From positions 43,925,082 through 43,989,081 of the forward strand of contig OX344751.2 of the NCBI GenBank assembly GCA_947034885.2: a DNA stretch of 64,000 nt. Reading direction: 5' to 3'. A model generated the notes under the pieces. The model was given only the letters and a program-made list of their open reading frames with translations. It did not search any database and was not told where the DNA came from. Below are positions 12,326-43,293 of the stretch, in pieces. The stretch's first letter is position 1. The number at the start of each line of letters is the position of its first letter. Source of the DNA: Thuidium tamariscinum (taxonomy: Eukaryota; Streptophyta; Bryopsida; Hypnales; Thuidiaceae). The position numbers were made by a program, and so were the translations under genes.

Positions 12326-14383
12326 TACAAAAAGGTTGAAGAACAGTATAATTGCCAAATGAAAGAACATATATCGGGGAATACACCCGGAGCCAAGAAA
12401 CAGAACAGCCTGTTCCAAAAGCGGTTTCCCAAAAACAATCGAACAAACACTAACACTAACCATACGAAATTCTAAGCCTCCTCAAGATCCTCCTCGTACT
12501 CGCCTTCCTCCTCGGCAGAAGCGTCCTGGTACTGCTGGTACTCCGAAACCAAATCGTTCATGTTGCTCTCCGCCTCGGTGAACTCCATCTCGTCCATGCC
12601 CTCGCCAGTGTACCAATGCAAAAAAGCCTTGCGACGGAACATAGCCGTGAACTGCTCGGAAACGCGACGGAACATCTCCTGGATGGAAGTCGAGTTGCCG
12701 ATGAAAGTCGAAGACATCTTCAGACCCGTAGGAGGGATGTCGCAAACAGAAGACTTCACGTTGTTAGGAATCCACTCCACGAAGTAAGAAGAGTTCTTGT
12801 TCTGCACGTTGATCATCTGCTCGTCCACCTCCTTCGTGGACATCTTGCCGCGGAACATCGCAGACGCAGTCAGGTAACGACCGTGACGAGGGTCAGCGGC
12901 GCACATCATGTTCTTAGCGTCCCACATCTGCTGAGTCAGCTCGGGAACAGTCAAAGACCTGTACTGCTGAGAACCACGAGAGGTCAAGGGAGCGAAACCG
13001 ACCATGAAAAAGTGCAGTCGCGGAAACGGAATCAGGTTCACGGCCAACTTCCGGAGATCAGAGTTCAGCTGACCGGGAAATCTCAGGCAGCAGGTGATGC
13101 CGCTCATCGTAGCAGAGATCAAGTGGTTTAAGTCACCGACTGCAACAACAACAACAAAATAAGCTTCAGAAAATACAGAAATACACGCACCGACTCAAGC
13201 ATTGCGGACAGGAAAAAAAAACTCTCCAGCAACAGCGAAGTACTGCAATCCAAATAAAGTGCCTGCACTTAAAATACGAAAACTCACAGGAAGGCGTGAT
13301 CAGCTTCAACGTCCGGAAACAGATGTCGTACAACGCCTCGTTGTCCAAAACCATACACTCGTCCGCATTCTCAACCAGCTGGTGAACGGACAAAGTCGCA
13401 TTGTAAGGCTCCACAACAGTGTCAGAAACCTTAGGCGAAGGGAAAACAGAAAACGTCAACATCATACGGTCAGGGTACTCCTCGCGGATCTTCGATATCA
13501 ACAAAGTGCCCATGCCAGATCCAGTGCCTCCTCCCAAACTGTGGCAAACCTGAAACCCTGCAACGCAACACAAAAACCTCACCACATTCACAAACGAAAC
13601 ACACAAAAATACCTCAACATAAAAAAATCGATCTCAAAAACACGAAAGAAAAAAAAAGAAAATGCCCATAGCCACTCTCAAATGTACCTTGCAGGCAGTC
13701 ACAGCTCTCAGCCTCCTTACGAACCACGTCCAAAACAGAGTCGATCAACTCAGCTCCCTCAGTGTAATGACCCTTCGCCCAGTTGTTGCCGGCTCCCGTC
13801 TGACCGAACACGAAGTTGTCCGGACGGAAGATCTGACCATACGGACCCGAACGCACGCTGTCCATCGTCCCGGGCTCAAGATCCATCAACACAGCGCGAG
13901 GAACATACCGACCGCCGCTCGCCTCGTTGTAGTAAACATTGATGCGCTCCAGCTGCAAGTCGGACACGCCCTGGTACGTACCCGTAGGATCAATGCCATG
14001 CTCCTCGCAAACCACCTCCCAGAACTTGGCACCGATCTGGTTGCCGCACTGACCGCCCTGAATGTGCAATATCTCTCTCATCTTGACAGCACTAACTACA
14101 ACGACCACTCGCAAACCTCCGCGACAGCTCAAGCACACTAAAACACACGGATCGAAGATCCTGGTGAGCCGAGCTCGCAGGCCGGCCAACAGCAGAAACA
14201 AGTATGGCGCGATGCGAAAGGGGCGTCGAAACACATTTGAGCGGGGGAAGGAGCGAGAGAGATAAAGAGGCCCCGTTCCCACTGGATTAGGTTTCTTTTC
14301 GGGCTCATTCTTCAGCGCCGTGGGATCGTTCATCGGGCGGTGGACATCGTCCGGGCAGCCCGGAACTAGCGATCGGGTCCACT
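12326..14383 (-). repeat. Inverted-repeat arm A (beta-tubulin cassette)
   Basis: This 2,058-bp arm is the reverse complement of 41236-43293: paired coordinates always sum to 55,619, so there is no net insertion or deletion. Every reading frame in it, sense and antisense, is the same in both arms, including introns and UTRs. I noticed one mismatch, at 14367 against 41252. Similarity stops at both edges. Confidence 0.95.
12472..14081 (-). CDS. TUBB: Beta-tubulin, copy A
   Basis: Beta subunit of the tubulin dimer that builds microtubules. Exons on the minus strand: 14081-13688 (394 nt), 13557-13288 (270 nt) and 13139-12472 (668 nt), 443 residues. Both introns sit at the usual plant beta-tubulin positions, after CLQ/G and inside TPS/F, with GT-AG ends. 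The protein opens with MREI, the N-terminal tetrapeptide used in co-translational tubulin mRNA autoregulation, has the GTP-binding loop GGGTGSGMG, and ends in an acidic tail [13 protein letters not shown]. The start was chosen at MREI because all family members start there; an in-frame ATG at 14333 would add 84 residues of non-conserved sequence and is taken as 5' UTR. The gene looks intact and is much GC-richer than its surroundings. The predicted protein is identical to copy B. Confidence 0.97.
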
Positions 14384-16418
14384 GCCTGCCGAAGTGCTGC
14401 CGAAGTCCATCTGGAGCCGATGAGCTTTCTCGGACCGTTGGATTGTGAGATCGACGACCGTTAGGCGAAGTGCTCTACTGTAGGGCTTGTGTGGGGTGTC
14501 TCTAAATGGGTGTTTGAATTATTGTTGATATATTCGTACTTGATGTTATTGTTATTGTATGCTTAATTTGATTATTATTAAGGAGAACATATTGAAAATT
14601 TTCAGCTGTGGAAACAGTGGTCTTTGTTAAATTAGAAATAAAGGTTAGTTTTGGTTGTTGAGAAGTGAAAATTATAATATTTCCATAAATTTTTGTAAAT
14701 TTAAATTTTTGGGAGATTTTTTTGGGGAGATTCTCTCAAATTTCAAAGGCATGATGTGAAGAATTTCTCCTCTTGAACTACAAAATGAACTTTCAATTGG
14801 CAAGATTTTGAGTTTATTTTCATTGACCGTCATCTATAACCCTTAGAAGTTGAAAAATTCAAATTTCAAATGATGGAAGACTGCAACTATGTATTGTATC
14901 CACTTAATCTTCAAGCTTCAATCCATCTAAATATTTGGAGGTTCTTGAGTTAGTTTTTTTACATTCATGTTGTGCCAATTTCCATAGGATTAAACTTATT
15001 AATGTATCCATGCCTTAAAATAGGCTATCTATTTTGTTTGTTATGATGAGATTTCAAGGATTGTGTATTTGTTAGTCACATTTTGTTAGTAACATTGGAA
15101 AGCTCTTTGTAATGAAGGATACATAGGCTTTATTTTGTAGTGTTCCAACCTATAGTGTGAAAATTTTAGAGTTTCAAAGTTTTTATGAATAAAAATTAAG
15201 AAAATGACTTTCATTTTTATTTGGATTAAGCAACAACAAAAGGTACAATTCTTTTGCACCTCAAATGGCAGTTTTTCTTGTTTTGTTTTGTTCTATATAT
15301 AACATTGAGATCTTGGGGTTCATTTGTCTCATAATCATGTTTTTTTTACAATTTTAAAGCTCTCTACAAAGAAGGATCAATAGACTTTACTTTATAGCAT
15401 TTCAACTTACAGCAAAAAGATACTGAATTTCAAAGTTTGTATTATCTAAAAAACTAGAAAATCACTTTTACTTTTATTTTGGTTGTAGCAAGGGCAAGGG
15501 GGGAAAAAAATTAATTTGAAAGCGATTTTAGTTTCGAATTTCTATTACAAATGAGGTTATTTGTTTGGTTTGGTTTATTACAATAAGATCTTTAAAACTA
15601 TATTTCCTTAATTGCATTCTTTTTATTGTTGAAAAGCTTGATGTGAGGAAGGATCTTTAGGCTTTGTTTCATGGCATTCTAACTTATAGCAAAAAAATAT
15701 TGAATTTCAATATTCTTATGATTAGAAAAATTAGAAAATTATTTATATTTGTATTTTATTATACTATGGCAACAATACATGGCATACTAGTCCCTTTGAA
15801 TTTATGAAACAATGTGGTAGTATATCTATCCACATGGATATAATCAATGGTTTTTTCTAATTTGTTAGAAAATCAGTGTTGAATAATTATTTTAGTCTCG
15901 ATTTTAGTTTGGAAATTTGAACCCACTTTATTTTTAATCCTTAATCACCCAATCAAGGCCATTATAGAGCTTCTTGAAATTTGGTCTAAATTGAAGAATA
16001 ACTCAAACATTTGATAATTTTTTTTAAAATCATAATAATTAGAAGTGAACATATTAGAAATCTCTTTTAAAAGAAAATACAACAATATCACTAATGGATT
16101 AAAATATTATAATGTTTGATGATGTCTTTCAATCATCTTTTCACATGTCAAATCTAGAAGTGATGTCACGAAAACAGATGAAGTTAAAGGACACAATATA
16201 CATAGCTCTAATCAATTTACAATTTCTTATAAACTCTCGTATAAACTACTCTACAATTTTTTCAAATGGATTCCTAAGATGATTTTTTTCAAGATTGAGT
16301 GTATTAGAATCTCATTTTTAAGAGCCCTCAACAATTTGAAAAGCAATATAATTTGCAATGAACACCTTTGTACAAATTCATAATTAGGAAAATCATTATT
16401 ATTCATTCTCCTAGTAGA
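14384..16418. other. AT-rich spacer 5' of tubulin copy A
   Basis: The first 100 bases or so should contain the copy-A promoter; they carry CCGTTGGAT at about 14434, the complement of a motif found at a similar distance upstream of copy B. The remainder is AT-rich, with no gene. A degenerate tandem repeat occupies about 15020-15830. Confidence 0.4.
15020..15830. repeat. Degenerate tandem repeat, about 270-bp period, three units
   Basis: The same order of short landmarks recurs three times at about 15100, 15355 and 15635: AAAGCTCT or AAAGCTTG, a GAAGGATC-like stretch, AGGCTTT or AGACTTT, a CTTATAGCAAAAA-like stretch, GAATTTCAA and AGAAAAT. Units are diverged, so the array is old. Confidence 0.6.
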
Positions 16419-16784
16419 CAATATAAGAAACCCATGTTTTTTTTGGTGTCAAGCCAAAAACATAACATGTTTAAGAAAACATTATATGTTTTATAGAACA
16501 TTGGGATGTCCAGTGACTGAAGGCTAAAAAAGGGAGGATTTAATTAGATGTTGTAAAAAGTATGCTAAATTATAGCCACAACAAATTGGCATTATTCAAA
16601 ACAATGATGTGGTTTAAAACATGGTTCTTAACATAAAGATGTTTTTAAAATCATCCAAGAAAACATTTATAGCCACATCATCATCATTGGTCAAACTTAA
16701 TTAAAGTAATTAACAAAATATTAGTTCGGTCTAGGTAAAATGATTGACTGGGTTAAAAAAGAAGAAAACAGGTAGGTGGTGTGG

Positions 16785-16885
16785 AAAATTATATGATGTG
16801 GCATCTGACGTGGACCAATGACATGGAAATTATGTGACGTGAACATAGTATGTTGATGTGGCATGCCACATCAGCACCCATGATA
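16785..16885. repeat. Left subterminal motif cluster of the CACTA element
   Basis: Closely spaced copies of GATGTGGCAT, TGACGTGGAC, GTGACGTGAAC and the palindrome TGGCATGCCA occur here. They recur in mirrored layout at 21310-21425. In this superfamily such subterminal clusters are where the transposase binds; that use here is inferred. Confidence 0.65.
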
Positions 16886-18596
16886 GACCTATGTTATAAT
16901 TTTGGATGTTTTTTTAAACGTCATACTAAACATAAAGATATATTTAAAGACATCACTGTTAGCAAAATCATTATTTATTTTTTGCAATTGTAATATCAAA
17001 GCAAATGTTATTCACTATGCAATTCAGAATATAAAAAAGGACAAGCAAACCTTATCCAAGCTATTAGATGTCTTTTTTTGATGCAAGCGTGACTATAACA
17101 TGATCATCAACAAGGGCTTTCATAAGTTGAGAACATCCATATTTTTTCTCTTTCTTCTTGTTGAGCATATTTTTTACTTGATAAAAATATTTTTTTCCTT
17201 ATAATTCCAATTACAATATTTTCTTACTATGGAAAAGAACATCCATGTTTTTCATTATTCAAATTAGAATATTTTTGGTAAAAATAAGAATTTTTTAAAT
17301 TTATTCATGACATTATTTCAATTGAATATTGTCTTTAGGGAACCTAGGATACTTACATTTTTGTGTTATTGTGGTTGAGTATTTTTTTTATTACAAGATT
17401 GAAAAACCCCATTTTTTTATTTCTTTTAGTACAATTGCATGCAAGGGCTCTAAAGAAGAATAACAACATAATTTGTATTTTTTGCACTATTAATTACAAT
17501 TGCATATTTTTCTTGCACTAATAAGAACATCCATATTTTTTTAAATCAAAGGTGAGTATTTTCTTCAATATAAGATTGGAGAATTTCAATTTCTTCCTTT
17601 ATTACAATAGAAAATTCTCTTCAAATTAATTAGCACACAATTCATATTCTTTTCACTATTGAAATTCAATATTGTCTCTTCACAAATCTAAACATCCATG
17701 TTTTTTTTTATAAATTACACATGAATATTAGTAACACCTACATTTTTTTATATGCAATAACTTTAATTTACAAGATTAAAAACGTATATGCCTTTTTCAA
17801 AATTTCAATACATTCAGTAATTAATTTCTTCAAGTGAATATAATAACACCTATATTTTTTCCTTTTTGAAGGCAATTGCTAGGGCAATTGACCTTTTCTT
17901 TAGAAAAAATAAGGGTACCAAATAATCTTTTCATTATTGGAGTTTGACTTTTCTTTTAGAAAATACCAACATTCATTTCTTTCTTGTTGTTACAATTGGA
18001 CAAGACTAAGACACACTCTCTTTATAACAAAGGTGGAATAGATTTTTTATTCAAAAAATTAAGACTTGCAATATTTTTTAGTCTCACAATTGACTAAATT
18101 TCCCTTACTAAAATTATAACATCGTATATTTCTTCCTTCTCTTAGAATTGACAATTGACTACAACTTGGGAAGTTGGGGGGAAGCATTGTTGAAAAACAT
18201 AAGAACAATGTGTAATAAAGTATAAGGTTTAATATATTCATTGCATGTAAAATTTGTTAGCAAATTATATTTATCATAGGGTGCTTTAAAATTGTGAAAC
18301 ATGCAATATTATATATACTATAGAATTAGACATAATACTATAAATTATGTAAAGAGTACATATAAAATAGGATATACAAATATGAATAACTAAAAAAAAG
18401 GTTATAGGTTACAATATGAAGCTTTAAATGTATTCATGAATGGGGTGATCTGTCATAAAATTTGCCCATATTCTAAATAGAATACTTCATTCAAGGTACA
18501 TATGATATATGCAAAAAATACTTTAAAATTTAGTATTTAAGGGAAAAAAATGGGGTGTAAGAAAATATTAGGGTCAATGGGAAAATAATGAGGTAT

Positions 18597-19291
18597 AATC
18601 CCTAAAGGACCAAGGTCTTATTTTTTGTGAAAAAATAAATAAAAATTTCTATTTCTATAGTAAAGAGTACAAAAATTTGAAAACTATTTTTTTTTCTTCA
18701 AATCTAACCATAGTATCTTATACCTAACTAGTATGAGAGTGTGTGGAAAAATTTTCAAATTTTTTGACAATACAGATTGCAAGATCTTTACATTTAAAGT
18801 AAAAAAACAAGTTTTTTAACACATTGTGGGATTGGATTTTTCGACTTTGAGCCTTCTTAACTTTATTTTTTTGCACTATAGAGTTTTGAGCTTTAAATCT
18901 TTGAGGTGTATAATTGAGTTGAGACTCTATGGAAAAAAAAGTACAAAAAAACTTAATTTTTATTCTTTAAAAAATTGTTGTATAGAAGTAGGTATGAAAT
19001 AGAGGGAAAAGTTAAATAATTAATATCTTGAGTTAGAATGCTCTAATTCCACTAGTGGGATTGTTCTAGTAAGAGAAATAAACCCAAATTTTCAAAATTT
19101 GTTTTGTTGCTTGATCTCCCTTATTTTGAGTGATTTTGGGTAGAAATTTTATTCCTAGGCATCAATTGAAAAAACTGTATTCCCATAAAGACAATAAATA
19201 TTTCTATCTTCAAGATTTAAAAAAAAAATTAGGATAAAATTTGAACTTGTAGGTACCTGCCCAAAATTCCATTTGTCCCTCAAAGGGAATA
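18597..19291 (+). mobile_element. TTAA-type MITE, old copy nested in the CACTA element
   Basis: The left end reads TCCCTAAAGGACC and the right end TCCCTCAAAGGGA before ATAAG. The inside resembles the copy at 33128 (landmarks AACCATAGTATCTTATACC and CAAAATTCCATTTGTC). Ends and flanks are worn and no clean TTAA pair remains, so the edges are approximate. Confidence 0.65.
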
Positions 19292-21309
19292 AGTAATATA
19301 TTCTATTTTAAAATGCCCACCAAAAAAATTATAATTACCAATATGATGCAATTAATTAATCACCAACACTTATCTTTAATATAAAAAATACTATGTCTTT
19401 TCATGAATTTTGCAAGGTAAATAGTCCCCTTTTAAATAAGTCATTATTGTAGGTATATGGAAAATATAAGAGAGTGCCACTTCTTAGGACTTCAACAAGA
19501 AAAAAAAATTCCACATTGTTCCCTTTTTTCATAATTATTTTGCAGTTGATTTTTAATAGAGAATAATTTTTTGCAATTTTTTGTTCTTGTTTATAACAAT
19601 TTTTTATCTAACATAGTAATGTACGAGTGTGTTATTTTTAATTCTATAGTGTATTCCATTATTTCAAAATTTTGTAACTAATTACATTGAACAAATAAAA
19701 ATATTGATAATTCCAAACACAAACTTTCAAAGTTGTAAAATCTTTTTATATTTTTAAAGAAGGTAGATTGCTTAAATGTTATGTAAATTTACATATAGAT
19801 ACATGTATATAGATACTTATTTACTTATAGATACTAATACATAAGGAGTACATTTAAATGCTTGAAAAAAAATATGAATAGATTTTACTACTTTGAAAGT
19901 TTATGTTTCAAATTTTTGACATTTTTTCTTGTTTACAATAATTAATTACAAATTTTTCAAGTTAAAAAGATATGTTATAAAGATAAAAAATATTTTCTTC
20001 ATCCCTATATTATATAAGACAAAAATGTTTAAAAATTCAACAAAACATTCTAAAAAATAACTTCATGTTGAAAGTTTATTTTCCTTAATTGTTGATGCAA
20101 TAGTCATCTGAATGTGATCTCTATAACTATTTGAGTTAAAAAACATGTTATTTCAATTCATTTTTCAACCTTTTTAAAAAAAATACCACTTGTTATTTGA
20201 GATGAAAGTTTTTGGCAATAGAAGCTTATAGTTTTTATTAGATGAAGTTCAAAATTGTAGGTTGAAATTCATATTTATTAAGAAGATATATCTTCTAGGA
20301 TGTAGAGATAAAATTCTAAAACAAATGCCTTTGTTTGAATGTTGTGAACAACATGAACATGTCCATTGAGACATCATGTACAACAATGTAACAAGGAAAG
20401 GCATGTCTTCTACAACATCACTAGTTTTGAAAGGATGTTAGATTTAATATTGTCAATGAAAATGTCAAAAAATACCAATGAAAGATATTGCCCCTTCCAA
20501 TCAGTCTCTTAAATTTGCCCATAACTTTTAGTTAAGACTTGAAATCTGAAACAAATTTTTGGAGATGAAACTTACCTTAAATCAACAACTTTTCTTAGTT
20601 GAAAGTATTTTGAAAAAAGTTGCTTTACTATGCCTAAATCTGGTCTAAAAATGCACATGTAACCCCAATTTCTACATTATAGCACAATGTCCCATATGGT
20701 TTGTCTTACCTTCCATCCTCGAACATGTATAAAGAGCTTGAGTTTTCCTCCTTACATATTCAAAAGCAAATGCTTTTTGAGGTGAAATATGGTGTATATT
20801 GTAATGTGTAAATTGTATGGAGTATTAAGTATGGTATATGGCGTGTGTATGATGTATTGTATATGATATATGGAATATTGTAAGTGATGTATGGAATTTT
20901 GTATGCAGTGTACAGTTTATTATATGATGCTTCACTGGACATGACATGCTTTAGTGGACATTTTTACTTGCATTGCATATGTATTTGGTGACTATTTTAA
21001 AATTCATATGTGCATTATGGTGGAGAGATGGGACTGTACATATTGACACCATGTTCTGCATTGCATTCAATTACTAGGGTGTCAAACATGACATCATTTT
21101 TTTCATTGAATTAAATTAGACAATTCAATATGCATTTATTAAGAAATGTCAACATTTAAGTTAACATTGCAAAACATCTCGATGTTCAAGTTGATATCTC
21201 AAAAATCACCTCATAAAATGTGTGGATGTCTAAGCTAACATCCCAAAAATCATTAAAATGTTTAAGTTGACATCTCTAAAATAGTTTGACATTTTCAAGT
21301 GGTACAAAA

Positions 21310-21425
21310 TTGTACTGACGTGGCATGCCACCTCAGCATATTTGGATGCCACATTATTCATTTTTGATTGCCACATGGCATGCCATGTCACTGCCACGTT
21401 ATGTGCCACATCATCGACAGGCAAT
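21310..21425. repeat. Right subterminal motif cluster of the CACTA element
   Basis: It contains TGACGTGGCATGCCACCTCA, GCCACATGGCATGCCATG and TGCCACATCATCG within about 115 bp, mirroring the cluster near the left end. Confidence 0.65.
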
Positions 21426-21693
21426 GGATGAAAAATCTTCCATGTTGGCATTCTCGCACTTAGGTGGCAACCACATGACAAACTTTGAGGCCCCCGTTGA
21501 CTAGTTTTTTTTTTTAATATTCAAGGCTTAACATGTCATGTTTTCATTAGCATAGTATGCTTTTGGCACGTTAAAATTAACGCAAGTAAATCAATGTCCG
21601 TTTTGATGTGGTAAAACATCACACACAACATTCCAATGTCAAATCTGTCGTTTTTCTTGACACCAAAAAAAACACGGGTTTCTTATAGTGAGA

Positions 21694-24010: not shown

Positions 24011-24120
24011 TTTCACTCCAAGGTTTCAATTATATTGCACTCTTTCGAGTTTGGAACGTATGCATTTCTACCATTTGACAGAGTGATTTCTCTTTCAAAG
24101 CCTATTTATGTCTTAAACCA

Positions 24121-24996: not shown

Positions 24997-25099
24997 AAAA
25001 AAAGGATGAAGACGAAAGAAGAAAACAAAAAATTCAGTAGATGTTATATACACTTATGTTAGAATTCATGTGCATTTCATTTCATATATAGTTTATTAT

Positions 25100-28094: not shown

Positions 28095-28454
28095 TTAACC
28101 CCTAAAAAACCAAATTGCGTTTTTTGCCAACATAGCAATTTGGGGCACCTTATTATGCATGAATTTTTTTTTCCCTTTGAAATTTTCACACAACATGTAT
28201 CCCAAGAGTACCTTTAAGGCCCAACAATTTTCATAACTTTTGACTACATGATTGAAAAGTTGTTGCATTATATGTGGTTTTCTTTGATCTTTGGGCAACC
28301 TGGGCACCTCAAAAATCTCTTTACAAAATATTTTTTTAAGAAATTAAATTTTGAAATTAGTTTATTAGATTTTTGTTAAAGTGGAAAGCTTTGAGTCATC
28401 CATTTTGATGAATAAGTGAAGAGTTATGAGGAATTTTAGTTTGGGGTAGCCTTT

Positions 28455-28503
28455 TGTAGTCTAACTTTTTGATCTTTAGAACTACTTTTTTATTTTTTTG
28501 TGA

Positions 28504-28562
<59 letters not shown>

Positions 28563-30603
28563 TATTCTATTTCTAGTATATAGTGGAAATAGAACTATAT
28601 TTTACCATATAAGTGTGAAATGGGTTAAATAAGTAGTAAGTAGTAAACAAATTAGTAATTAGAAAAGATAAAGAAAAAGCAACAAAGATAAAGATGGAGA
28701 AAAAGATAAGGAAGAGGTAGGGAGAAGTTTAGGGTTGCAGGTGTGATTGGAGGAGCTGTGCTAGCGTCTGTTCCGCTTTTGATCACCCCTTTCTCCCCAA
28801 CTTAAATCTCTCTCTCCTCTCATTTTTCCCTCCGTGCAAATTAAAAATTGACTCTCTCCTAGTGCTGTAATCTTTGCTTGTATCATTTGTTTAATTGCAA
28901 TAAAATTGAAAATTATGTATTTGTGTAGTGTGAAATTTGAGTTTCTGTGAATTGTGGCAAAATTGTTTGAATTCTGGAAGTACCGATTGTGGATCCGGAG
29001 TTGATTGTGAATTCGAAGATCTCGGGGAGGTTGGGTGAACTTTTGGTGCGGATCAGTGAAGGTTGTGGGTGGAAAGGTGCGAGCTGGTCGGTGGATCGGG
29101 AGAAAATCAGTGCAGTGCAATGAAGCTGATCGGCGAATCAAAGGGAATCAAAAACTGAGTGAGGTGCGGAGTACTGTGTGCGTCTGGGCAGCCTCGAGGA
29201 ACGATAACGGAGGGCCTGAATTTTCACGATTTGCACTCAATGCTGGAGTTTGTGAAAGCACTCGTAACACTGGGAAGATATTGTTAAGATTCTGGTGGTG
29301 AGTTTAGTGAGGTTTCGATTTGACGAATTGTCCCTGGACCAGTCGATGAAGCGACGATGAGCAAACGAGAGATCAGATTCGGTAGCAAATTCAGAGGCGC
29401 AACAATCAATTTGGCGGCCACAGTGCCAATCAACGAGGACAGTTGGTGAAGAAAGGCATCGGAAGGAAGTTGAACCTATGGTGCCAAATCGGGCCCAAAT
29501 CGAAATTCGAATTCAATTTTGTGTACCTTAGTGTGAATTCTTGTGCATGATTGATCCAGAGCACTAAAAGTATGAAATTGTTTGTAAAATTGGGTTGAAT
29601 TCGGTGTGAAAATTGTTAATTCAGCAACCTACGGGCTGTAAATTGAATTAGGGATTTGGAATGGCAAGGTTGTCCAAAATTTGTAATTAAATTGGAATTG
29701 GAAGTATCAATCTACAGTTTGTAATCCAAAACCTGGTGCGATTACAAACGTGTAAGAAATTGAGTGAAATTGTGTAAAGACTTGAAGAAATCAAACAAAA
29801 ATTTGTCGTCTAAGGCCGACAAATGCAACCGCGGCGCAAACAGTCGAGGTGACGAGCAGACGAAGTCGGTAGGTTGGGGTCATGGTCGGGAATTGGACCT
29901 GGTTTGAAGGGGGGGTTGAGACCCGTTTGGGCACGGTTATCGCGGCTATAGTCTTGGGGTATGGGTATTGAGACAGTCCAGGGTATCAACTGAGTATCGC
30001 ACGGCCATAGGATAGCGACGGATAAAACAAATTAAAATAAGGCTCAGATTTTTCGAAGGGCCGTATCCTTAGTTTGGGTATAGGTCCTAACATAAGTTTA
30101 GAGTATCAATTTTGAAATTGCATATGCATGTTGTAAATAGGAGTTTTGTGTGGGTTTTAGGTAGAGCATACTGATTTGCACATGTTTGGCCATATTGTCC
30201 TCGGTTGTGTGTGCGCGGACTTATTGTGAGTTATTCTAAAACATTAATTCTTATTCTTTTGCTAAATACTAAGAATAACAATACTATTATTTATTTAGTC
30301 TATAAGTCATGCATTGCACATGCATTCACTACAAGTCAGTCCACATTGAACTATTGTCCCAAAACTATTGTCATGAGCCAGTAGCATACTAGACAGGACT
30401 GTGACTGCATCCATCAGTCAATAGCATCTATTAATGGTCAGCTTGAGTGATACCTTGGGTTTTAGTGGGGTTAAGAATGAATCAGTCTCTAAATTTTGCA
30501 CGTTGTAACCTTCAAGCACATTATGCTAGCCTTACATAGTTCATTCCCTGGTGTTCGAACTCGGATTTAGTAAATCAGATTAGTTTCTAAAAAATATACT
30601 ACA
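28455..30603. mobile_element. Solo LTR of an LTR retrotransposon, 2,149 bp
   Basis: It begins TGTAGT and ends ACTACA, the inverted TG/CA ends of LTRs, and is flanked by a 5-bp duplication CCTTT at 28450-28454 and 30604-30608. The duplication is placed by comparison with uninterrupted copies of the host MITE. No second LTR and no internal coding region is visible, so it is read as a solo LTR; a short non-autonomous element is the alternative. Family (Ty3 or Ty1) cannot be told. It is younger than the MITE it entered. Confidence 0.75.
28508..28560. repeat. (TA)n microsatellite
   Basis: An uninterrupted TA repeat of about 53 bp lies near the left end of the solo LTR. Confidence 0.98.
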
Positions 30604-31198
30604 CCTTTGTGGGTAGTTATAGAATCTCTACTCTTGAAAAAAGTTTGAAATTCTTTATTTAATTCAATTCTTAATATTTTTGAAAAAAATTGAAACGTCA
30701 GGTGAAGATAGTTTATTAAAATACTACAACCATTGGAATTGACATTTTTCATTCCTATAAATAAATTGTTTACAATTTAGTATTTTGAAGTATTTCCTAC
30801 TTCTTTCTACTTACTATTTTTTTTCCTAATTATATGTTGTACAATTCCAAATGATTTGAAGTTTTTGGAGCATGTAACCAACTTGCATTGAAAAATGATT
30901 CCAAAAAGTAACCACCATTTTGAACATTTTTTCACACAAATGTGACCTTGTGAAGTACAGCTGCTCGAATTTTCATAGGGATAAAAAAATGATTCTTGTC
31001 AATTTAAATGTTAATATCTTGCAATTTGCATGGTGAAAATTTCTGAAATTTTTTCCATATCTTTTCAAACCACCTACTGCAAGATCCTACGGTTACATGT
31101 GTCAAAAATGTTTTTAAAAAGAAATTTGCACTTGTATTAGAAATCGCAGTTTTGGAGCGTTTTTGGTGAAAACATAGTCAAAAACTTTTAGGAGTTAA

Positions 31199-33123
31199 AC
31201 TCCACAACCTTGAATTGTGAGGATCCTTGAGTAAGTAATGCAAGGCATGATTCATCAACAAGCTTGATTGAAATTAGGGTTTGGGAAGAACTTGTAGATT
31301 TCATTAGTTGAAAGAGGTTGATCATTTCTTTTAGAAAAGCAATGGATTGAAAATTGGTACACCTACAAGTAACAAGATTATGAACTTTCATGAAATATTT
31401 GTAACTATTTTGAAATATAAGGACAATTTGTTCTAAGTTAACATGGTAGATTAAAACTCCAAACATTACATTTGAAACTTATCTTGATAGAGTTTCGAAC
31501 CTAAATATTTTCAATGAGAATAGATGAGTTTTTTTCTTACTATTTTTTTCATCAAACTTTAAATCCATTTAACCTTCAATTATTTTTCAATACATTTTTT
31601 CAATTATTGCGACTAGATCTACTGGATCAGAGATACCCAACCCCAACCTAACTAACAAACATGACTAAGCAAGAGAATGACAATATTGTTGCTAACTTAA
31701 CAGACATGGCAAAGCAAGATAATAACAGTATTAGGGGTAGTCGCGGCTCCTTCGAGCACCGAGATTTCGCAGAAGAATGAGGGAAAACAGGGTCCAATCA
31801 GGAGTCGATTAGCATGAAGGAGCTGTGACCCCCCTTTCGAGTGCGGTGAGCGTGTAGAATCGGAATTGTACGAGATCGGCAACTCCAACGGTGCGATTGG
31901 CAACTTCCGGTAACAACTTCGCTCGCTAACGGTTCTTCACACCGCTTATTCACCTCCGGAGTAGAATAAACAACGCGGCGAAGTCTTTGCCATCGAAGAA
32001 TATTCTGTCGCATGCCGTCTCGCAAGAGCCAACCCTAAGCTGCCACGACGAAAAACGGTGGCGAAGTTCGCCCTGGAGGAAGAGCCGTGACTACCCTTAT
32101 TGTTGCAGGAGACTAAAGTGAGCATAATTTGTGCACACCCAGAAATGTGTTGCATACGTTGCAGATACAGAATGAATGGACAGTCTCAATCAAAACTAAG
32201 TCTCCATTTCAGTAAACAAAAATTCTCAAACTTCAACTAGATCCAACTTTATTGAACCAGATCCATCTTTCACGGAGCCCACAGAAATTTGAATACGCCT
32301 CTGCAGAAGCAAGCCCCTGCAGAAGCGAGCCCTTGTTCTAACATTTTACAAAAGAACTCTAAACCATGATAGTTCACGCAGCTTGAAGACAATCGAGGCG
32401 GGCAAGCGGAGATATGCGCCGGACAGGAGCGTCGGATCAGAGTAGCTGTGCGGGACTCCGGAGGTTGATGGGGGAAGGAGGTCGCTGGAGGGAAGGAGGT
32501 CGGAAGGGGGGAGGTCGCTGGGGGGAAGGAGGTCGCTAGGGGTGGGTCGGAAAGGGGGGAGGAGGAGGAGCTGGCCGGCTGCGGACGGAGAGTTCAAGGG
32601 GGATCCGTAGCAGGCTCAGAACGGTTCAGTTGAGACGGAGGAAAAAACTGCCACTTTGGAGGGGAAGGTTAGAATTTCAAATTTTGAATTCGGAGGGAGG
32701 GAGGGACTGATGAGACGTGCAGCCAGTTTCAAACTTGTGGAGTAAGGTAGTTCTTGCCACTTGGCGTTCCTCTCGCCAAATGCTCCAGTACACAGTAGAT
32801 TATTGAGATAAGTTATACGGGGTGAAGTAAATGTAATAGCTTATAACTGTAGCTGCTATGGTACCAATTTCTTTTTACCTGAGGGCCTGATTACAGCAAA
32901 AACAAACCTGGGTAGGAGCCAAAAGAAATGGAGTGTTTTGATTGGGAACTTTGGGTTAGTACTACAACTATCTTTTAATCAAAACGTTGCATTTCTTTGG
33001 GCACAAAATCAAGATTTTGTTGTATAAAATAGGTCTTGAGCGTGGGTTGGGAGTTGGGGGGTGAAAACTTGTCTCAAATCTCAACTTGAAGAAGAAAATA
33101 ATTTAAATCTGGAAAATCACTCA
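31199..33123. other. Region with GC-richer island, unassigned
   Basis: From about 31690 to 32600 the sequence is clearly GC-richer than its surroundings. On the minus strand, frames at 31946-32155 (with RRGSLGLALARRHATEYSS) and 31798-32025 look basic and poor in acids, and the first runs to a possible donor GGAG/GTGAATAAG. This could be the first exon of a gene for an organelle protein or a gene scrap; no downstream exons were found. Confidence 0.3.
32462..32573. repeat. G-rich minisatellite
   Basis: About seven irregular units related to GGGGAAGGAGGTCGCT lie in tandem. On the minus strand they read as repeats of the type PPSDLLP. Confidence 0.8.
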
Positions 33124-33127
33124 TTAG

Positions 33128-34042: not shown

Positions 34043-34046
34043 TTAA

Positions 34047-35684
34047 GCTAGGTACCCCAATACATCTTGAAAATCAATGAGTACCTATGATGAAGAAACA
34101 ATTTGAGAACATCTACCCAAGAATGTTTTCACCCTTCATAACTATTGGACATGGTAATAAATTGTTGTATTCTTTGGTGCACTAGAACCTTTTATTATAT
34201 GCCAACAATAACAAACCAAAAATTCACCAATTTAGTCATATTAAATAGGCACAATAGCAAGAAGTGATGGTTGTTGGGGCACTCATTGGTATATACAATA
34301 CCTCAATGAAAACTACCATTCACTTTTAGGAGGGATTTTATTGTAAAATTAGGATTGTGTTCAAAATTTAAGAGGTTTCCCCTTAATAAGAACTCTAGGA
34401 TTCCCATTCACTATAATTTCAATATTCATCCAATTACAACTTTATTAACTTGTTCTTAATGTTGTTGAATTACTATTGTATTAAAAATTCTGAAAATAGC
34501 TTTGACTTCATCATGTTTAATTTATGCAATTCCCTCCTTCACAACCATTTTTCTCAAAAATTATTGTTTTTTTAGGGCAAGCCCAATACAACCATGAATC
34601 CATTCCATCAATATAATTAAGTGGTAAAAATGAAAGAAAGCATCTTAACATCTACATTTAAAGTGTACATTTTCAAATTTGGATCGATCAAGCCATTTTT
34701 ACATCAAATGAATTGATATAAACCATAAAGGGATATTAAGTTTACCATTCATCACCTACATAGGTGTTATAGTGCTTCATTAATCTTACTTTGCAATATT
34801 GTGCTTATAAAATTATGAATTATGAAATTTTTAATAAGATAAATGTTGATATGGGTTTGGTTTTTGTTTGCTAATTGATAGGTCTTTAATAGGTGAAACA
34901 ACATTTACACATGTGTCAATGTGCATGAAGAGTATTTTGGTGAAGAATGTTGTTGAGTTAGTTGCATCTTATTGGTCTCTTTTTCTCAAGTTCAAAAGTA
35001 CAACGACTTCCAAATATTCTATTTTTAGCCATTTTTTGAATGGAATTGTTTGACTTAATTATTGGTAATATTAATATAAACTACAACAATGAGATTTCTA
35101 TCTAAGCACAAATATGTTGCTCTAGATATAATTGAAAAATGTGTCATCAATTTGAACAGTCTTCAATTTGAGGATCTTTATGTATAAGAATTTAAAATCC
35201 ATTTATTCTAAATTGTTTTGATTAATATCATTTTTTTAGTCCAATCAAACTTTTGTACACTTGTAGTAAACTTGGAAGAAAGGTTGTGAAACAATTCATC
35301 AATAAACACTATTAGACATTAAGACAAGACGTTGGGTCCAAATCTATAAATTCCAACCTCTTTTCAAGAAAGGAAAAGATTCTATAAAAAAAACAAGGTA
35401 TCGTGAACCTAGAAAGGCAAAAAATGTAATGTCTTCTAAGACTATACTTTTTAGGATTATGAAATTTTTCTTAGCTCCATTTTTGTGTCACCTTCTTTTC
35501 TCCCCTATTATTTCTTACAACTTGACAATTGAGTCTCTTGGATTATCAAAGCTTTAGCCTAAAGTGACACATGTCACAAATGCATAGCTATGACAAACAA
35601 ATAAAGTCACACTTCACCAAGAGAATTTAGAAGCCTTGATACCAACTCCAATAACTGGTGACAAAATCAATACAATAAAGGTCT
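34047..35684. other. AT-rich region with a dispersed-repeat fragment
   Basis: At about 34055-34260 lies a fragment of the repeat also seen at 45590 and 48600 (landmark TTCTTTGGTGCACTAGAACC). The rest shows nothing recognisable. Confidence 0.4.
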
Positions 35685-35688
35685 TTAA

Positions 35689-37630
35689 CCTCTAAAGCCC
35701 TAAACTACATTTCTTGGCAACATAACAATTTTGGGAAAATCATTATGAATGGAGTTTTTAATAATAAATAAATAAATTCACACAATATTTTTGCAAAAAG
35801 TATATATAAGTCCCTACAATTTTTATCACTTTTGATTACATGGTTAAAAAGTTATGGCATGATATGTAGTTTTCATTGTTTAGTAAGCAGCTTGGGGCAA
35901 ATAAAAAAGCTTCTTACAAATTATTTTCTCAAAGAATAAAAAATTTGAAATTGGTTTATTAAATTTATATCTATATGTAAAGCTTTGAATCATTCCATTT
36001 TGAGATGAAAGTTATGAAGAATTTTAGTTCAAGGTACTTTGCAAGTAGTTATAGAGTCTCTTACTCTATAAAAAGTTTAAAACAATTGCAATTGACATTT
36101 TTCATTTCTATAAATAAATTATTCACAGTTTAATATTTTGATTAATTTTCTTATTCTTTTTACTTACTATTTTTTTCCTACATTTTGTACGATTCCAAAT
36201 GATTTGAAATTTTTTAAGTATGTAGCCAACTTGCCTTGAAGAATGAATTCAAAGGGTAACCACTATTTGGGTCATTTTTTCATATAAATGTGACCTTGTA
36301 AAGTGCAATTGCCTAGGTTATAGCAAGGATAAAAAAAGGATTTTGTCAATTTGAATACTAATATCTTGCAATCTACATGGTGGAAATTTCTGAATTTTTT
36401 CCACATTTTTTCAAATGAGTGTACTACAAGAGCCTCTAGTTACATGTACCAAAAGTGTTTTTTCCTAAATTTTGTACTTGTATTAGAAATTACAGTTTTG
36501 GAGCGCTTTTGGTGAAAACATAGCATTGGGGGGGCACTCTCACTACATTTGGGGGACCCATGTGCGATGAAGGGGTATTTTTTGGGGGCCTATTTACCTC
36601 CTAGGCAACATTAAAAAGGCCCCCATCATTACCTAATGCAAAAAGATTTCCTATATAATCATATGTATCATTACTTATAATATGTAGGTCAATGCAATTT
36701 TTGTAGCCTATATTTTTTATAAGTAAAAACACTAAATAAAAAACTAAAGAGAAAGTAAAAGAGACAAGGAAAAAATTCATAGAAAAAAGATTCAATTTTT
36801 CAACACCAATAAGCATGAATGAATCAAATACAAAACATTAGAATTAAAAGCAGTAGTCAACAATTAGAAGTCATATGAAGAATGTGTTCAAAAACACAAA
36901 GCTGAAGTCAATGAAAGTACTAAATGTGTAAAGTACTAAAAATGGGCCTCTATATCAAAATGTGAACAAGAAGAAATGTCTGCTAGCAAATGAAAAAACT
37001 ACAGCAGCAACATCCTGCTGTATTTTTGATACACTTATACATTTGAAAAAATTCAATCTACCATTTGCCATACAAAACTCCTGTGTTTAGAAATGCACCC
37101 CAACTGATTGGACTAGCACCTCCCAATCAATATGCAAAATAAAGAAATGACAATAGTACTAAGCTCCAATCATACAATTTGAAGTTATTTGTTTAGTTTT
37201 GACAAGATTAAAACCCTGTGAATTCTGAGAGTGCACACGATTAATAAATAAAATTCGCACCTTCATCCACTAATTTCGAGTTTCATCATGTAACTTTGAC
37301 CTTCAAGTACTATATTGTAAGTCTGACGTAGTACTATACTATAATTTTGATGTAGTACAAACAGACCCTACTAAATACAATTTCTTGGATCCAATTCTCT
37401 TGCCCCTAAATTACATGTACCTAAATGAATGGACCATATTTTTTGGCTACCTACATTACTTATAATGGACTTGCCACTTTTAATGTCCTCTACTTTAAAT
37501 ATAATTTTTTAATAAGTACTTCTAATTATTACCCAAAATGAATTAAATCCACCCTATATTGTGCCGCATGTGGGTTGCTAAAGTGCGGGAAGTGTCCCTC
37601 CCGTGAAATATAGTCAAAAACCTTTTAGGG
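35689..37630 (-). mobile_element. TTAA MITE, piggyBac-like, copy split by a hAT-like element
   Basis: TTAA occurs at 35685-35688 and 37631-37634, with ends CCTCTAAAG and CTTTTAGGG. Without the 1,082-bp insert and its 8-bp duplicate about 852 bp remain. Same orientation as the copies at 28099 and 53638. Confidence 0.82.
36524..37605. mobile_element. Non-autonomous hAT-like element, 1,082 bp
   Basis: It sits inside a TTAA MITE. The flanks AAACATAG (36516-36523) and AAATATAG (37606-37613) are an 8-bp duplication with one change. The ends are CATTGGGGGGGCACTCTC and, on the other strand, CACGGGAGGGACACTTCC, imperfect inverted repeats with 12 of 18 bases equal. An 8-bp duplication with CA..GGG ends fits hAT. 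There is no transposase. Confidence 0.78.
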
Positions 37631-37634
37631 TTAA

Positions 37635-39509
37635 AGAACTTCCTACAAAGAATGTCAAGCCTTTGTTCACTTGATGACATGATCAAATTTCCATAAAAGT
37701 AGAACCACCTATTTCCAACGAGGGACCCATATCCAACTTATAGGATATAGCTATTTCCAACCAAGGCTAGAAGAAATTTCCAATCAAAGCTTGGAATGTA
37801 CTTTTGTTCCATTTTCAAGGTTGGGACTAATAAGGTTATGACACATGTCCCAAAGTGTTATAAAGTGTTTGGAGAATACTGAGTAGGAAAGTATTCCAAG
37901 TTATGATTTGAATTAGAAGACTCCATACATTAACTATGGGTTCAAAGCACTTTTTGACTTTCAAAATTATAGTAATTTGAGTTTTGGGAATAAAATTCTG
38001 ATAAATTCGCAATCTTGATATTTACTATCTTTCTACATATGAAAAATTTGCATAACTTCATATTCTTGATGATTTGTTCTAGAATTCATAAGAGGTTTTA
38101 TTAGGGCTCTAAGAGACTATTTCAGTCTTGTTCTCCAATCTATAAACCAGTCACTGTTGGTCAGATCAAATAATAATAATATATTTAATTTAAAATAATT
38201 TAAATTAAAAAAATATTAGAAAAAATATTAAAATATTGATTAAATATTATTATCTAATGTAATAATCTCTTGGCCACATTAGATCACTTGTGCCGTAGAA
38301 CTCAATGAGTTCTCATAGTTTTTAGTGAATTTCCACAGTCCGGGAACTTGCAGTCTTCCAATGCAGCCAGAAAACCTCTTATGGCTTAAGTAATTGGAAA
38401 CAGGTGGTTCTACCTTAAACCTAATATTCGACAATAAAATGTCTTTGCAATCCCACCCAAGACAGTAGGTGACAAAGAGTTCCCCAATGTTAGGAGATAA
38501 CCATCGGTCACTTCATTATTAGCTAGTAGAATTGTAAAAAAAATGGTTGTACTTTGAAAAAATCATAATCAAAAGAAGAGATTTGGCTTCATAGAAGCCT
38601 ATGAATTCCCATATAGTTAAAAATGTTGGAAACTGTGTTGTTACTACATCTGATGTAGTGACTAGTGAGGAGACAACCATGTTGGAATTTTTTTTTCAAT
38701 TTGAGGTCTATAATTTATTTTTATTTTATTTTATTTATTTTTGGCATTTAAGAAGGTTGACAATAGTCAGTTGTTCCTTCACTATTGCGGAAACTTCAGA
38801 GGGAATTGACCTAAAACAGCCCCTTGTTTTCCAAAATCTCATCTTATGAAAACCATAATAATAATCTATAAAATTTATAATTGGAATAGTATAAGCAAAT
38901 AGAGAAAAATAAATTTGTAATATAAAACAATTCAACATAAAAATTCAAAATAAAACTAAAAAGAAATCATGAATGCTCTCTAATTCAATAATTGAGGAAG
39001 ATTCTATAGTGGAGTCATCATAAAATATATAAAGTTCTACAAAAGTACATTGTTCTAATTTAGTTTTATTATATATTTGACACAAAGGCAATGAATTTGT
39101 TGTAGATGTAAGCTTAAACTAATTTGTCTTCATAGTGGATGCGGCCCTTATTTATTAGTTACACAAAATTATCAACCACAATATTTTGAATCAATATAGG
39201 TTAAAAGTTATTGCACTACTTTATACAATAATAAAATTTTGTAGAGACACTAATATCCACCCACATTGTATTATACACAAATCAATAGAGTTGGTGATAG
39301 AATATTACATCTTAAAATCCAAGATATAAAATATTTATTTTGATTGATTGATTGAGATCATCTACTATCGAATCAATGGTGAAGGGTTAACAAATTATAT
39401 TTCTATATGTATATGTTAGTTTTTTCAACTAGGTATCGCATTAGATAATCTTTTAGGGCTTTAAGAGATAATTTCAAGTCTATTCCCTATACTATGAACT
39501 ACCTATAAG
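37635..39509. other. AT-rich region with a TIR element
   Basis: No gene is seen. It contains the TIR element at 37699-38413 and the left part of its second copy from about 39430. Confidence 0.4.
37699..38413. mobile_element. TIR element with GTAGAACCACCT ends
   Basis: GTAGAACCACCTATTTCCAA at the left and its mirror with one change at the right (GTAGAACCACCTGTTTCCAA on the other strand) lie 715 bp apart. The interior is non-coding. I found no target duplication. Part of the interior recurs at 39430-40035. Confidence 0.65.
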
Positions 39510-40035
39510 TAGGGTTTTTTTTGGTTTTTATAGAAGTGTTAAAGTGGCAACATATGAGAAAATGATAAAGCCAAATATTTTAGTATTCATCTATATTTTG
39601 AATAGAACTATCTTTTCATCTACATATTTGGATGAATTTCATTTAAAATTGACAATTTCATCCAATTTATTAAAAAAATTGGAGCAATTTGGCATTATCA
39701 TCCAATTTTTCTTCAAAATTTTCCTATAGGCTTGGTGCAACCCATTTGTTTTTGAGGCATTTGGGCCTTATGAGGCCCAAAAAAAACATTGCCTATTAGG
39801 TACTAGAATACCATATATTTAAGAAGTTAAAAATTTAGAAAAATTTAAAAACTAGAAATATTCAAATATTCAAATATTCAAAAATATTCAAAATTTTATA
39901 AATATTACGGAGTATTATTTGATGAAGCAATCTCTTGACCATCAATGTTAGATTGCAAATGTGGCACAATTCCTACAATTTCCATAGTTTGAAAACTTGT
40001 AGTCTTCCGGAGCCTTTAAAAATCATTTTATGGTT
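39430..40035. repeat. Diverged partial copy of the 37699 element
   Basis: Landmarks in order match the element at 37699: TAGGGCTTTAAGAGA, then after a 282-bp MITE an AT-rich part, AATCTCTTGACCA, CTTGTAGTCTTCC and a CTTATGG-like stretch. Its ends are not preserved. Confidence 0.55.
39510..39791. mobile_element. Short hAT-like MITE, 282 bp
   Basis: The left end TAGGGTTTTTTTTGG and the right end (other strand) CAATGTTTTTTTTGG lie between CCTATAAG (39502-39509) and CCTATTAG (39792-39799), an 8-bp duplication with one change. The right third matches the MITE at 50895 (CTATAGGCTTG, then TTTTTGAGG). Non-coding. Confidence 0.72.
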
Positions 40036-41235
40036 TTCAATTTTACTACAATACAAATATAATCTATACAAAATATTGTTATTCTAAATATATGCTAGAG
40101 CATTTTTTCTAAGTTTAGCTAAATACTTAATACAAAGGCTATGGTGAGTTCATAACAACCAAAATGATAGTTTTGTAAATTTATCATGTTATTTGCTACA
40201 CCAAAATTTAGGCCACATTACATGTTAATATATTTTTCAATGTGCTCAATATGATAAATTGATTTGCATCTATATTTGAACAATATAGATAATAGAAGTT
40301 GAATTTGCAATTTGCAACTTATCAAGTGGCCATTTGTTATGACTACAAGGTCCTTTATTTTCTTACATCACACTTACATTTATGCAATTATTTGACTAAT
40401 TTTGATTTATATTGCATTCCCAAAAGAGAATATTGTAAGCAACTAAATCTTATAGCAAATCTATAAACAATTAGAGGTCTATATTCTCAAATCCTTTTTT
40501 AAACAATGTTGAAACCAATCCTCACAATTATTGAACAATACTGAATAGTTTGAATTGACAAAGATAGAATTTCCTTTGAGAATTAGTGATTTATAACAAT
40601 CCATTCTTCATAATAAAGGATTCCTATTAGAAAAAATGAACAAAAACAAAAAAACTTTAGAAACTAATCATGAAAGATAGTGTTGGTAGAGACATTGTGG
40701 ATTTAGTACTTTTAATTGTGGCTTGAAAAAACAATGAAGGAGCTCTTGTAGATATAATGTATCAAGAATGAAACCTTGGTCATGTCAATTGACTAGTTTG
40801 AATTGAAAGTTTCAAGTAAGAGTCTTTATAAAACAACATTCTACTGGTAATTGTTAATTCTTCATCTTTATTCCATAAGATAATGAGGACATAAAACCTA
40901 ATTTCATGTTCTAAGTGCACATTCAAGATAACTGAAAACCTTGCGTACGTTACGACAAGTAAGATTCCACATTATTCAATAGTTTTTATCACATCCAGCA
41001 TCCAACTTCTTCTTGACCTAGTGTGAAGTGCACCAAACCGCTCCTCCTCCAATTACAATGCAGAAAACGCCTCGGCAAAGTCTCCATTTCACCAATGGAA
41101 ATTCCCCTTCACAGACCAGGTTGGGCCCTCGAAAAAGGCCTGCAGCCCAGTTACGGGACTCCATCTCCACCGCCACTCTACAGATCCAACGGCCAATACA
41201 GCCTCCTCTGGAAGCGTCCTTTAGCCTCCAGGTGG
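39800..41235. other. AT-rich spacer, then the copy-B promoter region
   Basis: No gene is seen up to about 41000. The last 220 bases turn GC-rich and should hold the proximal promoter of tubulin copy B; an open frame in register with the tubulin starts at 41028 but is not conserved in copy A. GATCCAACGGCC lies at 41183. Confidence 0.4.
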
Positions 41236-43293
41236 AGTGGACCCGATCGCTTGTTCCGGGCTGCCCGGACGATGTCCACCGCCCGATGAACGATCCCACG
41301 GCGCTGAAGAATGAGCCCGAAAAGAAACCTAATCCAGTGGGAACGGGGCCTCTTTATCTCTCTCGCTCCTTCCCCCGCTCAAATGTGTTTCGACGCCCCT
41401 TTCGCATCGCGCCATACTTGTTTCTGCTGTTGGCCGGCCTGCGAGCTCGGCTCACCAGGATCTTCGATCCGTGTGTTTTAGTGTGCTTGAGCTGTCGCGG
41501 AGGTTTGCGAGTGGTCGTTGTAGTTAGTGCTGTCAAGATGAGAGAGATATTGCACATTCAGGGCGGTCAGTGCGGCAACCAGATCGGTGCCAAGTTCTGG
41601 GAGGTGGTTTGCGAGGAGCATGGCATTGATCCTACGGGTACGTACCAGGGCGTGTCCGACTTGCAGCTGGAGCGCATCAATGTTTACTACAACGAGGCGA
41701 GCGGCGGTCGGTATGTTCCTCGCGCTGTGTTGATGGATCTTGAGCCCGGGACGATGGACAGCGTGCGTTCGGGTCCGTATGGTCAGATCTTCCGTCCGGA
41801 CAACTTCGTGTTCGGTCAGACGGGAGCCGGCAACAACTGGGCGAAGGGTCATTACACTGAGGGAGCTGAGTTGATCGACTCTGTTTTGGACGTGGTTCGT
41901 AAGGAGGCTGAGAGCTGTGACTGCCTGCAAGGTACATTTGAGAGTGGCTATGGGCATTTTCTTTTTTTTTCTTTCGTGTTTTTGAGATCGATTTTTTTAT
42001 GTTGAGGTATTTTTGTGTGTTTCGTTTGTGAATGTGGTGAGGTTTTTGTGTTGCGTTGCAGGGTTTCAGGTTTGCCACAGTTTGGGAGGAGGCACTGGAT
42101 CTGGCATGGGCACTTTGTTGATATCGAAGATCCGCGAGGAGTACCCTGACCGTATGATGTTGACGTTTTCTGTTTTCCCTTCGCCTAAGGTTTCTGACAC
42201 TGTTGTGGAGCCTTACAATGCGACTTTGTCCGTTCACCAGCTGGTTGAGAATGCGGACGAGTGTATGGTTTTGGACAACGAGGCGTTGTACGACATCTGT
42301 TTCCGGACGTTGAAGCTGATCACGCCTTCCTGTGAGTTTTCGTATTTTAAGTGCAGGCACTTTATTTGGATTGCAGTACTTCGCTGTTGCTGGAGAGTTT
42401 TTTTTTCCTGTCCGCAATGCTTGAGTCGGTGCGTGTATTTCTGTATTTTCTGAAGCTTATTTTGTTGTTGTTGTTGCAGTCGGTGACTTAAACCACTTGA
42501 TCTCTGCTACGATGAGCGGCATCACCTGCTGCCTGAGATTTCCCGGTCAGCTGAACTCTGATCTCCGGAAGTTGGCCGTGAACCTGATTCCGTTTCCGCG
42601 ACTGCACTTTTTCATGGTCGGTTTCGCTCCCTTGACCTCTCGTGGTTCTCAGCAGTACAGGTCTTTGACTGTTCCCGAGCTGACTCAGCAGATGTGGGAC
42701 GCTAAGAACATGATGTGCGCCGCTGACCCTCGTCACGGTCGTTACCTGACTGCGTCTGCGATGTTCCGCGGCAAGATGTCCACGAAGGAGGTGGACGAGC
42801 AGATGATCAACGTGCAGAACAAGAACTCTTCTTACTTCGTGGAGTGGATTCCTAACAACGTGAAGTCTTCTGTTTGCGACATCCCTCCTACGGGTCTGAA
42901 GATGTCTTCGACTTTCATCGGCAACTCGACTTCCATCCAGGAGATGTTCCGTCGCGTTTCCGAGCAGTTCACGGCTATGTTCCGTCGCAAGGCTTTTTTG
43001 CATTGGTACACTGGCGAGGGCATGGACGAGATGGAGTTCACCGAGGCGGAGAGCAACATGAACGATTTGGTTTCGGAGTACCAGCAGTACCAGGACGCTT
43101 CTGCCGAGGAGGAAGGCGAGTACGAGGAGGATCTTGAGGAGGCTTAGAATTTCGTATGGTTAGTGTTAGTGTTTGTTCGATTGTTTTTGGGAAACCGCTT
43201 TTGGAACAGGCTGTTCTGTTTCTTGGCTCCGGGTGTATTCCCCGATATATGTTCTTTCATTTGGCAATTATACTGTTCTTCAACCTTTTTGTA
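41236..43293 (+). repeat. Inverted-repeat arm B (beta-tubulin cassette)
   Basis: This is the mirror of 12326-14383, 2,058 bp, covering about 300 bp upstream of the tubulin start, all exons and introns, and 146 bp after the stop. One mismatch (41252) was noticed. Confidence 0.95.
41538..43147 (+). CDS. TUBB: Beta-tubulin, copy B
   Basis: Same product as copy A: 443-residue beta-tubulin, the microtubule subunit that binds and hydrolyses GTP. Exons are 41538-41931, 42062-42331 and 42480-43147 with GT-AG introns of 130 and 148 bp. Visible are MREI at the start, [14 protein letters not shown], the nucleotide loop GGGTGSGMG at the start of exon 2, the [10 protein letters not shown] and [20 protein letters not shown] regions, and the acidic tail. 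The ATG at 41286 and the long open frame from 41028 lie in register upstream but are taken as untranslated, since the family always begins MREI. Because the shared arm ends 302 bp before the start and 146 bp after the stop, this copy should have its own distal promoter and 3' end. Confidence 0.97.

Follow-up and report, generated by a model that had tools for sequence, protein, structure and literature searches.

The stretch analysed here, a window of 64 kb from the moss Thuidium tamariscinum (contig OX344751.2, positions 43,925,082 to 43,989,081 of the forward strand), carries two beta-tubulin genes, copies A and B, that lie in inverted arms and form a divergent pair transcribed away from each other. 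An earlier note on this DNA had described two near-identical inverted arms of equal length with one mismatch, and a base-by-base comparison bears this out: the arms, 12326-14383 and 41236-43293, are each 2058 bp long and repeat each other in inverted orientation, with 2057 of 2058 bases identical. Each arm holds one intact three-exon gene with a coding sequence of 1332 nt including the stop codon, the same in A and B, for a protein of 443 amino acids, and the spliced coding sequence of copy B has one stop, which is terminal. When the A/B protein was compared with the PDB, the best 60 of the 170 matched chains were all named tubulin or beta-tubulin. The arms also span both introns, 302 bp upstream of the ATG and 146 bp downstream of the stop codon. 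With one mismatch in 2058 bp, the neutral sequence (introns and untranslated regions, UTRs) is as alike between A and B as the coding sequence. The features of the two units, in window positions, are:

12326 to 14383, minus strand: arm 1, with the complete beta-tubulin gene unit of copy A, transcribed leftwards; its identity is to the reverse complement of arm 2
14367, partner base 41252: the sole mismatch within the arms, 17 bp from the arm end
14384 to 41235: spacer between the arms, 26,852 bp, AT-rich, holding copies of a dispersed repeat
14435 to 14443, minus strand: distal promoter element ATCCAACGG of copy A, beyond the identical arm and 362 bp upstream of the ATG
41184 to 41192, plus strand: distal promoter element ATCCAACGG of copy B, beyond the identical arm and 354 bp upstream of the ATG
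41236 to 43293, plus strand: arm 2, with the complete beta-tubulin gene unit of copy B, transcribed rightwards
41538 to 41931, plus strand: exon 1 of copy B, beginning with the ATG at 41538; by arm symmetry its counterpart in copy A is 13688-14081
41932 to 42061, plus strand: intron 1 of copy B, identical in A and diverged in the third gene C described below
42062 to 42331, plus strand: exon 2 of copy B; mirrored in copy A at 13288-13557
42332 to 42479, plus strand: intron 2 of copy B
42480 to 43147, plus strand: exon 3 of copy B with the stop codon, including the tract at codons 320-392 described below; mirrored in copy A at 12472-13139

At the arm edges the likeness ends at once. Identity falls to 20 of 50 positions directly left of arm 1 (12276-12325) and stands at 16 of 50 at 14426-14475, beyond its other end. 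The 64-kb window contains no N bases. Neither terminal repeats nor a target-site duplication rise above background at the arms (shared sequence is no longer than 3 and 5 bp in the flanks and 3 bp at the arm termini), in agreement with the earlier observation that no transposon ends border them. A transposon or retrotransposed origin is ruled out by this lack of terminal repeats and target-site duplication above background, together with the retention of both introns. In a DNA search of the genome itself (363 Mb, 19 contigs, with only the best candidates scored), A and B were the sole near-identical full-length copies among the matches listed; the next ones are about 90% identical and in pieces.

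A third beta-tubulin gene, C, lies just outside the window at about G000:C3:43990881-43992914, 22.5 kb past arm 2. Its protein is that of A and B (443 amino acids), and the coding differences (78 of 1332) are all synonymous, including those at 53 of 191 fourfold sites. The introns and UTRs of C have diverged from those of A and B, where these are identical. Because C encodes the same protein, differs only synonymously and has diverged introns, it is an old paralog under strong protein constraint. One part of exon 3 departs from this pattern: at codons 320-392, 67 consecutive codons capable of synonymous change show no difference between A/B and C, a run that none of 20,000 permutations reached. 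Over the same codons A/B differ from the paralog on contig C2 at 31 of 62 and from that on contig C9 at 35 of 61 (the comparison used these two paralogs and left out the one on contig C4). Codons 320-392 are a conversion tract rather than a case of nucleotide constraint and, because they lack any A/B-C difference yet differ from the C2 and C9 paralogs, gene conversion does take place in this cluster. Between A and B such a comparison would have no unconverted homology to draw on.

The three genes also have upstream sequence in common. The element ATCCAACG lies 362, 354 and 346 bp upstream of the ATG in A, B and C respectively (distances computed by hand), which places it outside the arms in A and B. 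ATCCAACGG occurs only twice in the 64-kb window against 0.27 expected, and a colinear 8-mer common to the flanks of A, B and C was matched in 1 of 5000 shuffles. The plant MSA consensus is YCYAACGGYY; this motif has 3 matches in the window against 0.63 expected, all of them within about 85 bp of the arms. Because the element stands at near-equal distances from the ATG outside the arms, and because the 8-mer of the three flanks is rare in shuffles, these data suggest that A and B each had a related promoter of its own before their gene bodies were made identical. Old promoter homology beyond the arms is thereby supported, short of proof.

Similar pairs occur in other gene families. Searches of the genome gave inverted pairs of alpha-tubulin, actin, LHC, rbcS (two copies listed), elongation factors, 14-3-3 and HSP70; those of rbcS, actin, LHC, EF1A, EF2 and 14-3-3 are located on contigs C1, C2, C4, C6, C9 and C10. 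DNA comparison covered 14 inverted and 5 direct combinations, and the HSP70 pairs and the LHC pair near 50.5 Mb on contig C1 were assessed by scores only. For six inverted pairs the best match reaches 99.1% identity or more: beta-tubulin, alpha-tubulin on contig C7, LHC at 112/136 kb on contig C1, rbcS, EF1A copies 2-3 and EF2. The alpha-tubulin arms on contig C7 (G000:C7:16510662-16515666 and 16526199-16531202) are 99.96% identical over 5005 bp, and the LHC pair at 112/136 kb is 99.89% identical over 2704 bp. The EF2 copies lie about 131 kb apart, yet are 99.1% identical over 2455 bp. The rbcS match reaches 99.4% identity, with the gap that separates its two exon matches counted in, and stops at the stop codon.

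Other inverted pairs are mosaics. In the alpha-tubulin pair on contig C1, 1.0 kb with zero differences is flanked on both sides by up to 34 differences per 100; codons 20-371 are identical among the 395 compared, and 18 codons outside them differ (the extreme tail including an unaligned length shift). The LHC pair on contig C6 runs for 1.5 kb at zero and then shows 13-34 differences per 100 on one side, and the actin pair has 0.6 kb at zero and, to one side, as many as 35 differences per 100. The LHC pair on contig C9 is weakly mosaic (0.5 kb at zero), and the inverted EF1A copies 1-3 and 14-3-3 pair are patchy. In the inverted pairs that are at least 99.8% identical (beta-tubulin, alpha-tubulin on contig C7 and LHC at 112/136 kb), 8 of 8 differences fall in the outer 10.5% of the half-arm. 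Four of them, at most 7 bp from an arm end, may be alignment overrun; when these are left out, the other 4 still fall in that outer part (P = 8e-05). The three pairs were chosen after inspection as the most identical, not the longest, since EF2 and EF1A 2-3 are longer than beta-tubulin.

From these comparisons we consider it likely that A and B are old local members of the beta-tubulin family, together with C, which lie inverted and owe their continued identity to intrachromosomal gene conversion, and we infer that conversion rather than duplication gave rise to their identity. The earlier note had offered two readings, very recent duplication or gene conversion. Conversion between older paralogs is now favoured because of the shared promoter element outside the arms, the conversion tract in the cluster and the mosaic inverted pairs elsewhere, and the choice is not decisive because the flanks of A and B align weakly by ordinary means. 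Of 300 shuffles, 17, 10 and 19 reach the alignment score of the 5' flanks at lengths of 120, 200 and 400 bp; for the 3' flanks, which give no signal, the numbers are 142, 240 and 67 at 60, 120 and 400 bp. These values weigh against conversion between old paralogs, as do several further results. The 9-mer of A and B alone is reached by 129 of 5000 shuffles, and at the arm edges identity gives way to no homology very suddenly, a pattern that a new insertion would produce as well. The edge clustering was picked out post hoc, with only one difference contributed by the strict window arms of beta-tubulin, and the 4, 7 and 21 differences of the rbcS, EF1A 2-3 and EF2 pairs are spread rather than clustered at the edges. 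No clear tract was seen in 2 of the 14 inverted comparisons, LHC on contig C10 and LHC at 46.9 Mb on contig C1. Finally, 659 bp of the direct LHC copies 2-3 on contig C4 match at 99.4%, and EF1A 1-2, another direct pair, is mosaic; conversion is therefore at work between direct copies as well. Apart from the LHC copies on contig C4, the direct pairs, four in number with EF1A 1-2 among them, are 93.6-97.3% identical.

A recent inverted duplication would have carried a copy of the 2-kb unit to a place 27 kb away, by replication template switching or by ectopic repair insertion, too recently for differences to arise. It would account for the sharp edges, for flanks that by ordinary alignment are unrelated or nearly so, and for the single mismatch in 2058 bp; template switching would also leave no target-site duplication. 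The differences of the EF1A 2-3 and EF2 pairs are spread over the arms, as in ageing duplicates. We nevertheless regard this course as unlikely, because the promoter element outside both arms at near-equal distances, the clustering of differences at the edges of the three most identical pairs, and the similar inverted pairs elsewhere whose flanks are old and diverged speak against it. Assembly can also go wrong at near-identical inverted copies, and a single gene could have been placed twice. Such an artefact is very improbable here, given that the four flanks are all different, that the window has no N and the arms do have a mismatch, and that graded similar pairs, several with mosaic divergence, lie on seven other contigs (C1, C2, C4, C6, C7, C9 and C10). 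Strong selection on the nucleotide sequence, in place of recombination, would fit a protein so extremely conserved that C encodes the same 443 amino acids, but it is barely credible: the introns and UTRs are identical in A and B and diverged in C, the A/B intron identity by itself largely refutes it, and codons 320-392 vary freely between A/B and the paralogs on contigs C2 and C9.

For gene conversion between A and B, we infer the following repair pathway and survival advantage of the inverted orientation. A break or nick in one copy would be repaired by copying from the other, and the resulting tract would cover essentially all the homology that remains, from -302 to 146 bp past the stop codon. 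The outcome of a crossover depends on orientation: between inverted copies it would only flip the spacer, and between direct copies it would delete one gene. Inverted orientation should thus make homogenisation safe, so that near-identical pairs should survive best when inverted.

Orientation was counted among neighbours at most 150 kb apart. Eight housekeeping groups gave 22 inverted and 8 direct pairs, versus 8 and 35 for P450 and UGT (Fisher 3.5e-6); this first count, from hand-typed rows, omitted three direct pairs whose scores were weak or mixed, along with one inverted pair of P450 genes. With the hand-omitted pairs restored, the numbers are 22 inverted and 11 direct for housekeeping versus 9 and 35 for P450 and UGT (P = 5.8e-5). 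The P450 arrays, for which the best 92 of 547 candidates were scored and which were assessed by scores and not by DNA comparison, are mostly direct with unequal scores. The histone and mitochondrial carrier families added 8 inverted and 5 or 6 direct pairs, judged by eye with one direct Mito_carr pair ambiguous; a possible direct histone pair with differing match ranges (C10 22845553/22948158) and other weak or single-exon match rows were excluded. Pooled, with the ambiguous Mito_carr pair counted as direct, 30 of 47 housekeeping, histone and carrier pairs are inverted, which does not differ significantly from one half (P = 0.08). Against the approximately 80% parallel orientation in Arabidopsis arrays, which are defined differently in the available text of that source, the same fraction gives P = 8e-11 (PMC2547482). 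Among the housekeeping neighbours of equal score in the first count, 14 of 18 are inverted (P = 0.03). The families were hand-picked after the first pairs had been seen, neighbours come in some cases from different subfamilies, and only the best candidates are scored in the search; the inverted bias among housekeeping pairs is accordingly a lead and not an unbiased census.

In the first set of families, 11 of the 22 inverted neighbour spacings fall at 20.8-26.6 kb. A modal spacing of about 23 kb was rejected: with the range fixed beforehand, 0 of 8 inverted neighbour pairs in the histone and carrier families, tallied by eye, lie within it, and the clustering in the first set is probably chance or family choice. 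One non-neighbour inverted histone pair (C1 12321359/12347070) is 25.7 kb apart.

How do these pairs compare with known systems? In human Y palindromes, inverted copies are held nearly identical by arm-to-arm conversion; their arms are much longer than those described here and lie on a sex chromosome without a recombining partner. Inverted pairs homogenised by conversion are a kind already known from the hsp70 genes of flies, and the inverted bias is the interesting lead. As far as the accessible text of that study goes, inverted hsp70 pairs in Diptera are homogenised by gene conversion and the inverted pair is the basic unit; as at our locus, coding regions are homogenised, homogeneity drops away from the coding sequence and the flanks are diverged (PMC3071340). 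The present case differs in that a plant housekeeping gene is involved, with the copies 27 kb apart and introns and both UTRs included, and in that similar pairs recur across several families of one genome. In Physcomitrella, tandem genes are highly similar, which has been taken to suggest gene conversion; they too are locally arrayed, and the available text does not mention inverted orientation (PMC3045890, citing Lang et al. 2008). Tandem arrays in general are also local duplicates, mostly with two members, and in the portion of the source at hand parallel orientation amounts to about 80% in Arabidopsis, 88% in rice and 72-94% in vertebrates, whereas the hand-picked housekeeping families here lean inverted (PMC2547482). 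High homologous recombination is stated for Physcomitrium in the accessible parts of two papers (PMC13120521; PMC3729371). A literature search over titles and the starts of abstracts returned, among the matches listed, no report of inverted housekeeping pairs in moss, and nothing was found in a search on beta-tubulin gene conversion between inverted paralogs with introns.

We tentatively propose, as a possibility we rate below even, that this genome as a rule maintains its housekeeping genes in inverted pairs with wide spacing, because the inverted orientation lets very active conversion preserve identity without loss of copies. If true, gene orientation would be a genome-wide record of recombination-driven duplicate survival, the reverse of the usual parallel rule for tandem genes. 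Should the orientation bias survive an unbiased count, it would help to explain the persistence of duplicates in a genome with strong homologous recombination, and near-zero divergence between paralogs would be unusable for dating duplications there. At the locus itself, the case would be one of concerted evolution that reaches across 27 kb and takes in a whole plant housekeeping gene with its introns and UTRs. A and B would then form an ordinary gene pair in a known evolutionary mode, unusually complete, and possibly an entry to a genome-wide habit.

The remainder of the window holds several other features. No Pfam domains were detected in the spacer at 28.7-33.7 kb (both strands) or at 20.0-28.7 kb (plus strand only). 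Pfam scans of window parts outside the arms (including, on the plus strand only, 49.4-53.0 kb and 20.0-28.7 kb) returned nothing beyond matches to protein kinase exons at 785-2415 (plus strand) and to a PPR-DYW gene at 4344-6134 (minus strand). PPR-DYW genes are typical of land plants. Elsewhere in the genome, one LHC protein has as its best-matching chains, behind a single fused chain (9vfj), 7xqp_a and 8htu_U, both of Physcomitrium patens; the scores of further chains are almost as high. A dispersed repeat of about 0.88 kb, with copies 75-83% alike, occurs at 10320-11166, at 28164-28449 plus 30606-31199, at 35777-36029 plus 36077-36523 and at 53705-54586; one of these copies is interrupted by the stretch 28450-30605. 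A short palindrome, self-complementary at 94% over 212 bp, lies at 56237-56448, and a tandem repeat with a period of 64 and about 3.9 copies at 62152-62396.

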